From the NCBI GenBank assembly GCA_016867055.1, contig VGKN01000023.1, forward strand, positions 1-11,724: 11,724 nt of DNA. Reading direction: 5' to 3'. This stretch comes from Candidatus Omnitrophota bacterium (GTDB lineage: Bacteria; Omnitrophota; Koll11; VGKN01). This document shows positions 1 through 6,402 of this stretch, in pieces. Position 1 is the first letter of the stretch. The number at the start of each line of letters is the position of its first letter. Under the pieces are notes generated by a model. It did no database searches and had not been told where the DNA came from. It saw only the letters and a list, made by a program, of their open reading frames with translations. A program made the position numbers and the translations under genes.

Positions 1-132
1 AACTATTGTGCCTCTTTTGGTAGCATCAAATGCAGTTGCATCGTCCTTAAATTCCTGTATTAATAAGTCTTCATCGTCCGTCTCATATACTTTCTTTGCC
101 TTTCCTTCATAGATTAGTTTTAATTTTTGCAT
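1..132 (-). CDS. purC: SAICAR synthase (PurC), N-terminal 44 codons, cut by the window edge
   Basis: Phosphoribosylaminoimidazole-succinocarboxamide synthase joins aspartate to CAIR in de novo purine synthesis. Only the first 44 codons are present; the gene runs off the low-coordinate edge. The visible protein begins [18 protein letters not shown] and continues through EFKDDATAF. This is the typical SAICAR synthase start: a YEGKAKxVYET beta-hairpin that forms part of the ATP site, followed by FKDDATAF. The ATG at 132-130 shares its A with the purB stop (TAATG). A strong Shine-Dalgarno AGGAGGG lies about 10 nt upstream, inside the purB end. Coupled translation with purB is therefore likely, and PurB acts directly after PurC in the pathway. 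Family assignment is firm; completeness cannot be judged. Confidence 0.93.
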
Positions 133-1424
133 TAGATTCCCACCCTCCTATAAATTTTGTCCACAAACCGCATATGGTATTTCAGAGAAAAACATCTACC
201 AAGGTCTGTTTTAGACAAAATATTTGTTATTCTTTTATCCTTTTCCAAAATCTCTTTAAAATCTTTGTTCTCATTATAAGACCTCATAGCAGCCTCTTGA
301 GCTATACTATAGGCATCTAATCGGCTCAACCCTCTTTCTATCAGGGTTAAAAGCACATGCTGGGAGAATAATCTTCCCCTCGTAAGTCCCAAATTCCGCT
401 TCATATTCTCCGGATAAACCAAAAGATTATCAACCAGTTTTGTTATTTCATTTAGCATAAAATCAATAAGGGCGCAGGAGTCGGGTATAATTATCCTCTC
501 AACAGAGGAGTGGCTTATGTCCCTTTCATGCCACAGGGTTACATTTTCAAGCGCCGCCTGTGCATTTGCGCGAAGTAGCCGCGCAAGGCCACATATCCTT
601 TCTGAATTTACAGGATTTCTCTTGTGCGGCATTGCGGATGAGCCCTTCTGTCCTTTTGAGAAGAACTCCTCTGCCTCAGAAACCTCTGTCCTCTGAAGGT
701 GCCTAACCTCAGTTGCAAACCTTTCAAGGGTTGTGCCAATAAGGGCGAGGGTTGATAAAAACTCTGCATGCCTATCACGAGATATAACCTGCGTTGATAT
801 AGGACTTGGTTTAATGCCCAGTTTTTTACACGCATATTCTTCCACATATGGTTCAATATTTGCATAAGTGCCCACGGCACCCGATATCTTTCCAAAGGAT
901 ATCGTCTCTTTTGCCTTAATCATCCTTTCTAAATTCCTTTTTGTCTCATCATAAAAGAGAGCAAGTTTTAACCCAAATGTAATCGGCTCCGCATGCACTC
1001 CATGTGTTCTTCCGACAATTGGAGTATATTTGTATTTTTTTGCCTTTTTTGAGATAACATTTAAAAGTTTCCTTAGGTCATCTATTATGACATCACCGGA
1101 GGCCTTCATCTGACAGGCAAGGGTAGTATCTAAGATATCGTTTGAGGTAAGCCCCATATGCAAAAACCTCGCTGATGAACCTATATTTTCAGAGATGTTC
1201 TCAATAAACGCCACTACATCATGCTTTGTCTTTTCCTCTATCTGTTTTATCCTGTCTATGTTAAAGCGCGCCTTCTTCTTTATAATAGCTAAATCGCTCT
1301 TTGAAATTTTTCCAAGTTTAGAGAGGGCTTCGCAACTTAAAATCTCCACATCCAGCATCTTCTTAAACTTATTCTCATCGCTCCATATAGCTTTCATCTT
1401 TGGGAGTAGGTATCTTTCTATCAT
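132..1424 (-). CDS. purB: Adenylosuccinate lyase (PurB), 430 aa
   Basis: Cleaves SAICAR to AICAR plus fumarate, and adenylosuccinate to AMP plus fumarate. It is a cytosolic homotetramer of the fumarase/aspartase superfamily. Visible signatures in order: KHDV near residue 68, MGLTSNDI at 90-97, [10 protein letters not shown] at 138-147 with the catalytic His141, and the superfamily signature [10 protein letters not shown] at 262-271 on the mobile catalytic-serine loop. Length is normal for the bacterial short form (about 430 aa). The ATG follows TAGGAG by 8 nt, and that SD contains the stop codon of the upstream peptidase gene, so the two genes are separated by only 10 nt. Its stop overlaps the purC start. 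No frameshift or missing motif was seen. Confidence 0.97.
143..149 (-). promoter_or_regulatory. Shine-Dalgarno site of purC
   Basis: AGGAGGG on the minus strand, 10 nt before the purC ATG, inside the last codons of purB. It fixes the purC start and implies that ribosomes finishing purB are close to the purC start. Confidence 0.8.
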
Positions 1425-3600: not shown

Positions 3601-3661
3601 ATATAAATTAACGCTGGTTTGCCCCCTTGGTGACTCATTAATAAATGAATGCCTCAGGGAC

Positions 3662-3696
3662 AAATTTCGCTGTGATTTTGTATCATAGCGAAATTT
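3662..3696. repeat. 35-bp imperfect palindrome directly abutting the tRNA-fMet 3' end
   Basis: AAATTTCGCT at 3662-3671 and AGCGAAATTT at 3687-3696 are perfect 10-bp inverted arms. Inside them TGAT and ATCA pair as well, giving about 15 bp around a 5-nt loop with one non-Watson-Crick position. The first base of the arm on the transcribed strand is the A of the encoded CCA. There is no run of T after the stem on the minus strand, so a simple intrinsic terminator is doubtful. It may mark the tRNA 3' processing boundary or be a small inserted repeat. Confidence 0.7.
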
Positions 3697-3738
3697 GGTA
3701 GCGGGGCCTGGATTTGAACCAGGGACCTCAAGGTTATG

Positions 3739-3961
3739 CTTACTACTACAGTTTTCACTGCTCCGCCAAAATCTTGGCGAATTTGTAGTCTGGACTATAC
3801 CTTTGTCCTTGACACCGAAGTGTCTTAGGACATCTGCCATCTAGTCTCTACGCTTTTCCATCACAAATAGTGATGGACTTAGCTCGGTATTACCTTAAAC
3901 CTCAAGGGCTTCACCGAATTTGGCAGATTATCCTACAGTCGTTTCCGACTGAGGAGCCCAT
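3739..3961 (-). ncRNA. Group I ribozyme core: guide sequence, P2-P9 and omega-G
   Basis: Helices read on the minus strand: P2 CAGTCG-GAAA-CGACTG at 3951-3936; P3 ATCTGCC (3928-3922) with GGCAGAT (3838-3832); P4 TCGGT (3917-3913) with ACCGA (3888-3884); a P6 hairpin CCATCAC/GTGATGG at 3876-3858; P7 GACTA (3846-3842) with TAGTC (3797-3793); P8 containing GACAC-TTCG-GTGTC at 3824-3811; P9 hairpins CGCCAA-GATT-TTGGCG (3779-3764) and CAGT-GAAA-ACTG (3760-3749). Conserved blocks resembling cyanobacterial tRNA introns are AAATTCGGTGAAGCC (P), GGTAATACCGAGC (Q) and GTAGAGACTAGATGG (R). The terminal G at 3739 is the omega-G. The subgroup call IC3 is by resemblance. Confidence 0.88.
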
Positions 3962-4379
3962 CGGACAACAAATCCCATCGCGCTCTGTAGTTTGCTGACT
4001 TTGGCTTACGTTGTCTTTTATCTGTCTCTACAAAAGTTACAGTGCTTTCATAATTAGAAAAGACAGACACGGGTATTACGTAAAATACATGCAAGTCAGC
4101 AATGTAGACAATTGCGAAATCAAAATCATTTAAGCCGTAACGTTGCCTTAGCATACGTCGGCGATTCGTCTTAGTTCTACGCGCATCTACAACATAACAT
4201 TTTGCTTTTGCGCTAAACCAAGCGCTCTTCACCTGTATGCGTAGGAGCTTACCATGAAGATCGATTCCTAAATCGTATGAAAGTCGATCTCCAATAGGCC
4301 TTAACACCTTGAAACCTCTTTTTAGAAGTTCCGTTGTTACGGCTGATTCCGCAATGTCTGCTTTGAGTTTTGTGTCCAT
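3933..4379 (-). CDS. Intron-encoded PD-(D/E)XK homing endonuclease, I-Ssp6803I type, 148 aa
   Basis: Cleaves intronless tRNA-fMet genes at the anticodon region so that repair copies the intron in; this function is inferred from the family. Starting at ATG 4379 the protein has Glu11 (ADIAES), Asp36 (SYDLGID), then RIQVKSAW with Gln49 and Lys51. This is the PD-(D/E)XK core with a Q-x-K third motif as in I-Ssp6803I, a protein of almost the same length found in the same tRNA. The remainder is basic (RRTKTNRRRMLRQR). The frame is open further upstream to a GTG at 4409 inside the tRNA exon, which would add ten exon-encoded residues; the ATG three bases into the intron is more likely. Its AAGG upstream match lies in the tRNA anticodon stem. 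The C-terminus overlaps the guide sequence and P2. By hand count about 11 of 17 Arg codons are CGN, unlike the AGA/AGG preference of neighbours, which suggests transfer. Confidence 0.87.
   Translation of the reverse strand: MDTKLKADIAESAVTTELLKRGFKVLRPIGDRLSYDLGIDLHGKLLRIQVKSAWFSAKAKCYVVDARRTKTNRRRMLRQRYGLNDFDFAIVYIADLHVFYVIPVSVFSNYESTVTFVETDKRQRKPKSANYRARWDLLSDGLLSRKRL
3955..3961 (-). other. Internal guide sequence (P1/P10) of the intron
   Basis: AUGGGCU pairs with the joined exons GGCU|CAU over seven positions. GGCU of the guide pairs with GGCU of the 5' exon, with the obligatory U33-G wobble at the splice site and a G30-U wobble. AUG of the guide pairs with C34-A35-U36 of the 3' exon (P10). 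The motif lies inside the last codons of the endonuclease frame. Confidence 0.75.
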
Positions 4380-4424
4380 TGAGCCTTGCGAGCTACCGGA
4401 CTGCTCCACCCCGCGATGATTAAA

Positions 4425-4826
4425 TTATTTCTTTCCTAGCCTTGACTCCTCTCGGCGCTTAAGGTCTGCTAAGCGCTCCTGAGATTGTTTTAAAAATATC
4501 TTAAGTTTCTCCTCAAGGGCAGGGTTTTTAAACTGGATTCGTTTTTTCGGCTGTGAAACTAAAGTAGTTGACGCTTCCTTTCTGAGACTGAGATCCACCC
4601 TACCATTTTCGCTTATGGATAGAACCCTTGCCTTTAGCCTATCGCCCACCTTGAGATATTCGTTTATGTCCCTGACAAAACCATCGGTTATCTGCGAGAT
4701 GTGAATCAATCCTACCCTATTAAATGGGAGTTTTGCAAATGCACCAAAATTTGCTATCTTCGTTATCTCTATGTCAAGGAATTCGCCTTCCTTAAACGTC
4801 TCATTGGTTTGAGAGGGCTCTTCCAT
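4425..4826 (-). CDS. Single S1-domain RNA-binding protein (YabR-like), 133 aa
   Basis: Small RNA-binding protein with one S1 (OB-fold) domain at about residues 12-82: GEFLDIEITKIANFGAF, then GLIHISQIT, VGDRLKARVLSI and DLSLRK, which are the usual S1 landmarks. A basic, charged tail of about 50 residues follows (PALEEKLKIFLKQSQERL onward). It resembles B. subtilis YabR/general stress protein 13, whose gene also lies next to the FtsB homologue divIC, so the pairing with the upstream ftsB-like gene here is a supporting context clue. It starts 3 nt after the ftsB stop with no strong SD, so translational coupling is likely. The tRNA-fMet gene starts 10 nt below its stop. The exact RNA target is unknown. 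Confidence 0.85.
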   Translation of the reverse strand: MEEPSQTNETFKEGEFLDIEITKIANFGAFAKLPFNRVGLIHISQITDGFVRDINEYLKVGDRLKARVLSISENGRVDLSLRKEASTTLVSQPKKRIQFKNPALEEKLKIFLKQSQERLADLKRREESRLGKK

Positions 4827-4829
4827 AGA

Positions 4830-6402
<1,573 letters not shown>

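Follow-up and report, generated by a model that had tools for sequence, protein, structure and literature searches.

A probably mobile I-Ssp6803I-type group I intron in a native initiator tRNA gene of Omnitrophota

The best known element of the kind considered here lies in the tRNA-fMet gene of Synechocystis PCC 6803, where a 655-nt intron encodes the 150-aa PD-(D/E)XK endonuclease I-Ssp6803I (PMC1995217, available text). The available text of the tRNAscan-SE 2.0 account reports group I introns in fMet and Ile2 genes that were missed by prediction in 36 genomes, names the fMet genes of Gloeobacter and Synechocystis among them, and makes no mention of Omnitrophota or of a phylum-wide pattern (PMC8450103). 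In Candidatus Omnitrophota itself, NCBI lists proteins named 'group I intron-associated PD-(D/E)XK endonuclease' (P0004, 86% identical; P0041, 78% identical) that belong to the same family and phylum as the endonuclease described below, as names only, with no tRNA or locus given. Among the matches listed, we found no paper on group I introns in Omnitrophota in the open-access literature, and a search of that literature for tRNA introns of CPR bacteria likewise returned no paper.

The DNA analyzed here is an 11,724-nt stretch from an Omnitrophota assembly (the window). Its element resembles the Synechocystis intron in its fMet host gene, its site in the anticodon loop, its similar length, and its homologous endonuclease (PMC1995217, available text), and it resembles the tRNAscan-SE 2.0 cases in that a group I intron in the anticodon loop explains a missing fMet prediction (PMC8450103, available text). 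A sequence-only reading of the window had implied that the element was a surprising, lone excursion far from cyanobacteria. That surprise is weaker now, as the element proves to be widespread and introns behind missing fMet predictions had already been noted (PMC8450103, in the text available). The kind of element is already known, from Synechocystis and Gloeobacter and by NCBI name in Omnitrophota, and what is added here is scale and context; we have not seen its prevalence within Omnitrophota described before.

We consider it very likely that the native initiator tRNA gene of this Omnitrophota bacterium, probably its only one, carries a mobile I-Ssp6803I-type group I intron; from the patterns set out below we infer splicing, cleavage, and homing. 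In intron mode, ARAGORN calls a single tRNA in the window, tRNA-Met(cat) at c[3696,4415], which is 77 nt long once a 643-nt intron is taken out between ...aggct (U33) and cataa (C34-A35-U36). Plain ARAGORN finds no tRNA in the whole window, and intron mode made no tRNA call on 100 order-1 Markov resamples of it. The proposal that a complete tRNA-fMet appears when 643 nt between U33 and C34 are removed is thereby matched base by base, with exact coordinates. Because CA stands after both splice sites, sequence alone would let them slide by 2 nt; they are fixed at the positions first proposed because U33 faces a G and the intron has a terminal G. The features of the locus are collected in Table 1.

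Table 1. Features of the interrupted initiator tRNA locus and its neighbors (window coordinates)
Feature	Position	Strand	Basis
purB, adenylosuccinate lyase	132..1424	-	context; near fMet in some relatives
tRNA-fMet 3' exon (C34 to encoded CCA end)	3696..3738	-	ARAGORN intron mode
Group I intron, 643 nt; CAAUGG start, GUAAG end, terminal G at 3739	3739..4381	-	ARAGORN, Rfam, and covariation
P9.0/P9 (3789-3785 with 3746-3742)	3742..3789	-	fold/covariation structure
P9a 3781-3762; P9b 3760-3749	within 3742..3789	-	fold/covariation structure
P7 pseudoknot, guanosine-binding helix (3846-3842 GACUA with 3797-3793 UAGUC)	3793..3846	-	paired in 36/36
P8	3831-3805	-	within P7 span
P3 (3928-3922 with 3838-3832), around P4, P5, P6, P6a	3832..3928	-	fold/covariation structure
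P4	3917-3913/3888-3884	-	inside P3
P5	3907-3904/3896-3893	-	inside P3
Homing endonuclease ORF, 148 aa, PF11645 PDDEXK_5	3933..4379	-	profile and homology; dN/dS
P2 hairpin CAGUCG-GAAA-CGACUG, also final endonuclease codons	3936..3951	-	fold/covariation structure
Internal guide sequence/P1 3' strand UGGGCU; G3958 opposite U33	3955..3960	-	read from sequence
P1 5' strand: G30 G31 C32 U33 / C+1 A+2	4380..4385	-	read from sequence
tRNA-fMet 5' exon (nt 1 to U33)	4382..4415	-	ARAGORN intron mode
S1-domain RNA-binding protein, upstream of tRNA-fMet	4425..4826	-	context; near fMet in several Omnitrophota loci
Enolase, conserved fMet neighbor	5128..6399	-	context

The joined exons have the marks of an initiator, with C1/U72 unpaired, A11-U24, and a CAU anticodon. 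The three G-C pairs at 29-31/39-41 are absent, and AGG/CCU stands in place of GGG/CCC. This stem is the second commonest among initiators (522 of 4438; PMC5143459 Table 4, available part), so the three G-C pairs are usual rather than defining. In Omnitrophota, the AGG/CCU initiator stem is found both with and without an intron. The 5' exon, a motif common to the relatives, comprises the acceptor 5' strand, the D arm, the anticodon stem 5' strand CAAGG, and C32-U33. We considered whether the AAGG of this stem is a Shine-Dalgarno site evolved for the endonuclease and rejected the idea, as CAAGG is frequent in genomes with uninterrupted fMet genes (e.g. G285, G249, and G229) and is therefore a lineage trait. 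An A+T-rich inverted repeat (AAATTTCGCTATGAT...ATCACAGCGAAATTT; window 3660-3697), seen by eye, comes immediately after the encoded CCA on the minus strand and is perhaps the end of the transcript; it is missing from the output of the terminator scan, and the promoter and terminator scan of the window gave a result at chance level.

The sequence-only reading described the removed piece as an intact group I intron and proposed an Rfam search as a check. The group I model RF00028 matches 3979-3763 on the minus strand over its entire length with 65.3 bits (E 4.7e-15), above its gathering score of 50 bits, which bears the description out. IC3 is the subgroup typical of bacterial tRNA introns. The core RNA of the window folds 7.3 standard deviations better than shuffles (z -7.3, n=200), and, taken by itself, the core forms helices that correspond to P2, P3, P4, P5, P6, P8, and P9; a single-sequence fold of this type cannot include the P7 pseudoknot, and the guide sequence pairs elsewhere in it. 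The group I structure with the P7 pseudoknot was written from the window, a procedure that favors the window structure over slid versions of it. It was applied to 36 aligned cores that represent several phyla, out of 65 extracted, with the extraction demanding GGGC and a P4 motif (passed by 65 of 75 introns).

Within this alignment, 90.8% of 2156 cells are paired, both sides have changed at 49 of 65 pairs, and the covariation score is 0.453, against 0.180 for shuffled and at most 0.119 for slid versions. Cells with changes on both sides number 415 against 142 in shuffles; kinship among sequences can beat shuffles without any structure, but this margin is still wide. None of 500 shuffles reached the real value on any pairing measure. 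P7 and P4 are each paired in 36 of 36 cores, and the weakly kept parts are the outermost P3 pair (5 of 36), P5 (77.6% of cells), and the P8 extension. A P3-P8 core with its P7 guanosine site is maintained by covariation. Of 75 introns (65 read by script and 10 by eye), 70 have GGGC as the guide immediately ahead of P2 and the other 5 have GGGU; a terminal G was a requirement in setting intron bounds. In the window, A3961-U3960-G3959 could also pair as P10 with C34-A35-U36 of the 3' exon.

The endonuclease ORF sits in loop L1, with its ATG at intron nt 3-5 and its stop within the ribozyme core. Its product scores 149 bits against PF11645 (cut-off 26.1; E 1.1e-43), and residues 2-138 align with 2ost_A, the solved I-Ssp6803I chain, at E 9.1e-48. 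Glu11, Asp36, Gln49, and Lys51, which we take to be the active-site residues of the I-Ssp6803I-type enzyme, are all present in the window protein; E, D, and K are found in 81 of 81 aligned sequences and Q in 80 of 81, with one gap. On this match and these residues, the earlier assignment to the I-Ssp6803I family stands. The 2ost chain, perhaps an inactive variant, has Q at the position of E11, which makes this residue the least secure of the four. The dN/dS of the endonuclease has a median of 0.126 and a maximum of 0.31 (117 usable of 351 pairs), which indicates that it is under purifying selection.

The ORF crosses the guide sequence, such that its final codons are the guide sequence and P2. 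Among 48 endonucleases found within introns, 38 could be scored for core overlap and 10 could not; the ORF extends beyond the guide sequence in 36 of the 38 and ends before the core in 2. Endonuclease ORFs that overlap intron cores appear in the legend of Figure 2b in Hausner 2014 (PMC3984707), so overlap as such is known, as far as that legend goes. A relative from Snowella (L048, 655-nt intron) shares with the window the U33/C34 site and an endonuclease in L1 that runs into the guide and P2. The two differ in that the L048 ORF starts at about intron nt 18 rather than nt 3, and in that L048 has, by eye, a P1 extension (GCAAGAU/AUCUUGC), of which none was seen in the window. The two endonucleases also occupy separate parts of the endonuclease tree and come from different host phyla.

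These features suggest how the element could operate. In the folded pre-tRNA, GGCU of the 5' exon would pair with GGGCU of the internal guide sequence, a guanosine bound in P7 would attack after U33, and joining of the exons would give mature tRNA-fMet. Alternatively, the unspliced transcript may serve as endonuclease mRNA, read from the AUG at intron nt 3-5. Because the last codons are the guide and P2, a given transcript would probably be either translated through or spliced, not both. The endonuclease is predicted to cut fMet genes that lack the intron, at the near-palindromic sequence of the anticodon arm, after which repair would copy the intron in.

A protein search with the window endonuclease returned 1602 relatives; a genome scan yielded 156 loci, and 80 of them were retained. 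An fMet gene was reassembled in 74 of the 80, always split at U33/C34, under 15 phylum labels that include Omnitrophota, Bacteroidota, Cyanobacteriota, Chloroflexota, Melainabacteria, Margulisiibacteriota, Chlamydiota, Nitrospirota, Acidobacteriota, and two CPR phyla; such record labels may be wrong, as for L028. In the other six loci (L020, L029, L032, L037, L038, and L070), neither a complete fMet gene nor an Rfam intron match was found. Among the 75 sequences formed by these 74 loci and the window, 26 (L050, L035, L061, L034, L039, and others) have a short intron (212-340 nt) and carry the endonuclease outside and downstream of the fMet gene, at 54-192 nt from it in 24 of the 26; in one of the 75 the endonuclease lies upstream. 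The endonuclease tree needs at least 11 switches between inside and outside positions.

Within the host phylum, we examined 285 Omnitrophota genomes, a sample drawn through G001. A best match to a contiguous-fMet model (R1) at E 9.7e-16 or better was counted as a contiguous gene and tallied by hand; 176 genomes have one, and the other 109 have no match better than 4.5e-14. A search pattern for the 3' exon that should fit interrupted genes alone was found in 59 genomes, and its reversed control in none. One of the 59, G219, had seemed to contain both an intact and an interrupted gene. This case was rejected, as its two extra matches (L278 and L279) are bare fMet 3' ends without an intron, leaving the signature in 58 of 285 genomes. 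The two fragments, which resemble each other in their flanking DNA and share the genome with an intact fMet gene, have the look of scars left by elements that integrated at the 3' end of the tRNA. Thirty signature loci were opened, and in 28 of them an intron separates the two exons; G130 and G222 have no recognized 5' exon and have a group I core beside the 3' exon.

Endonuclease matches occur in 51 of the 285 genomes; 20 of these, weak or partial (E 3.6e-14 to 3.8e-5), were set aside, leaving 31 with a strong match. The signature is present in 30 of the 31, with G238 lacking it, so 28 of the 58 signature genomes are without a strong endonuclease match. Endonuclease fragments lie on the fMet contig of three of these 28 (G130, G065, and G212), which fits a cycle of gain, decay, and loss. 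Two of the 31 strong matches (G163 and G126) have an in-frame TAG; these and the early-stopping endonucleases indicate that some copies are not intact. No contiguous fMet gene was found in any of the 31 strong-match genomes. In 51 of the 109 genomes without a contiguous gene the signature is absent as well (G238, with its strong endonuclease match, is among them), which could reflect contigs absent from the assembly or yet another form of the fMet gene; incomplete assemblies are the likely reason, and missing contigs could equally hide second copies. As a side observation, RF00028 matches 150 of the 285 genomes at E 1e-3 and 130 above the gathering score, with up to six matches per genome, and other tRNA introns were seen in tRNA-Arg (L284) and tRNA-Tyr (L285).

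The neighborhood of the gene points to a native locus. The best named relatives of the window enolase are from Omnitrophota, and rnfA, rnfB, rnfE, and rnfG are present above their NCBIfam cut-offs, in agreement with the earlier description of a non-cyanobacterial host carrying Rnf. Within flanks of about 1.5 kb or less, enolase adjoins fMet in 24 of 30 endonuclease-bearing loci (L117-L146) and in 19 of 30 loci with uninterrupted fMet (L147-L176); the corresponding counts for purB are 6 of 30 and 1 of 30. Enolase thus lies beside fMet with or without the intron, which indicates that the tRNA locus is native and that the intron comes and goes. In L028, labeled Planctomycetales, both enolase and endonuclease group with Omnitrophota, and the record is probably a mislabeled MAG.

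Whether the intron moves was judged from 27 sequences in which endonuclease and enolase are both long enough (351 pairs). The alternative is a fixed, vertically inherited ribozyme whose endonuclease is a relic or a maturase and does not move. The correlation of endonuclease with enolase identities (Spearman 0.42) speaks for partly vertical inheritance, as does the endonuclease tree, where most Omnitrophota rows fall together (a 43-row set, support 99, that includes a few rows with other labels), and the tRNA locus itself looks vertically inherited. Against this, the endonuclease is more conserved than the linked enolase in 248 of the 351 pairs; for the window's best pair, with L001, the identities are 82% and 65%. 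The endonuclease tree (145 columns, weakly resolved, with 12 of 84 forks starred) places the window with L001, L003, and L004 at a support of 87, below the starred level, and the enolase data reject both the window+L001 clade (AU p 7.9e-5) and the four-member clade (p 5.4e-5). The two trees therefore conflict, with the host represented by enolase alone and transfer resting on this single marker gene. A dN/dS of about 0.13 is also hard to square with a relic, as are the 176 of 285 genomes with a contiguous fMet match with a fixed intron, and we regard this alternative as very unlikely. The earlier claim that the same homing system works here stands in part: the endonuclease/enolase conflict, purifying selection, and presence or absence of the intron beside the same neighbor fit mobility, and splicing, cleavage, and homing themselves are what we infer from them.

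A mobile intron in a working gene also has to be set against the idea that the interrupted copy is dead, as a pseudogene or an assembly artefact, while a second, intact fMet gene does the work. The fMet genes were counted in relatives rather than in the window's own genome, and most of the relatives are multi-contig assemblies, which leaves this idea some room. The exons nevertheless make a complete 77-nt tRNA, compensatory changes maintain the core, and none of the 58 signature relatives has a contiguous fMet gene. These include G001, in which contig C1 spans 1.55 Mb with 39 tRNA matches (38 confirmed by ARAGORN) and the two contiguous CAU tRNAs are both elongator-like, with paired 1-72 ends and elongator D stems. 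A dead copy is thus extremely improbable, and the 58 of 58 count makes it probable that many Omnitrophota rely on ribozyme splicing for initiation. That the intron is not specific to fMet and jumps among tRNAs is scarcely credible. ARAGORN intron mode does label many loci Leu(caa), Pro(tgg), Thr(cgt), or Ser(cga), but its intron bounds are a few nt off in those loci; with bounds at U33/C34, all 75 sequences end in ...GGCT, resume at CATAACC, and have an fMet body. Insertion sites in tRNA-Leu, -Pro, -Thr, and -Ser were therefore rejected as a boundary artefact, and G001 and G205, the genomes with the tRNA-Arg and tRNA-Tyr introns, have their only endonuclease match at fMet.

If the mobile, fMet-specific intron is the correct reading, each initiation event in the signature lineages (58 of 285 assemblies) would hinge on a ribozyme reaction in a parasite. 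In Omnitrophota a single site is found empty, full, or holding an intron without the endonuclease, in many cases next to a shared neighbor gene. Natural populations of the phylum could thus be used to trace how a bacterial tRNA intron passes through its homing cycle. We also entertained, as an unlikely extension, that the element acts as a homeostat for initiator tRNA, in which case a selfish element would have set up negative feedback on translation initiation. The endonuclease AUG adjoins P1, the tRNA 5' exon forms the leader of the ORF, and the last codons are the guide and P2, so a ribosome on the pre-tRNA would block P1 and splicing. With the pre-tRNA seemingly the sole source of initiator tRNA, plentiful fMet-tRNA would then favor endonuclease translation and slow splicing, and scarcity would favor splicing.

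Carriage of the window's own element by a phage or plasmid was considered and rejected: it has no match in phage or plasmid collections at E 1e-5, and of six relatives in IMG/VR contigs, the five in the endonuclease tree lie apart from the window's clade. Endonuclease relatives on predicted viral contigs (L081-L085) are free-standing, and in all five loci with sequence beyond, the endonuclease gene ends within ~10 nt of, or overlaps, an intact, intron-less CAU tRNA gene. We have not seen phage endonuclease/tRNA pairs described before, and one might speculate that a phage cuts host fMet genes while providing a resistant copy. By eye, the CAU tRNAs of L083 and L084 have initiator marks, and their anticodon stem is altered (GUGACGCUCAUAACGUUA). 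The L084 protein has distant matches only, in 16 GenBank phage records at <60% identity.
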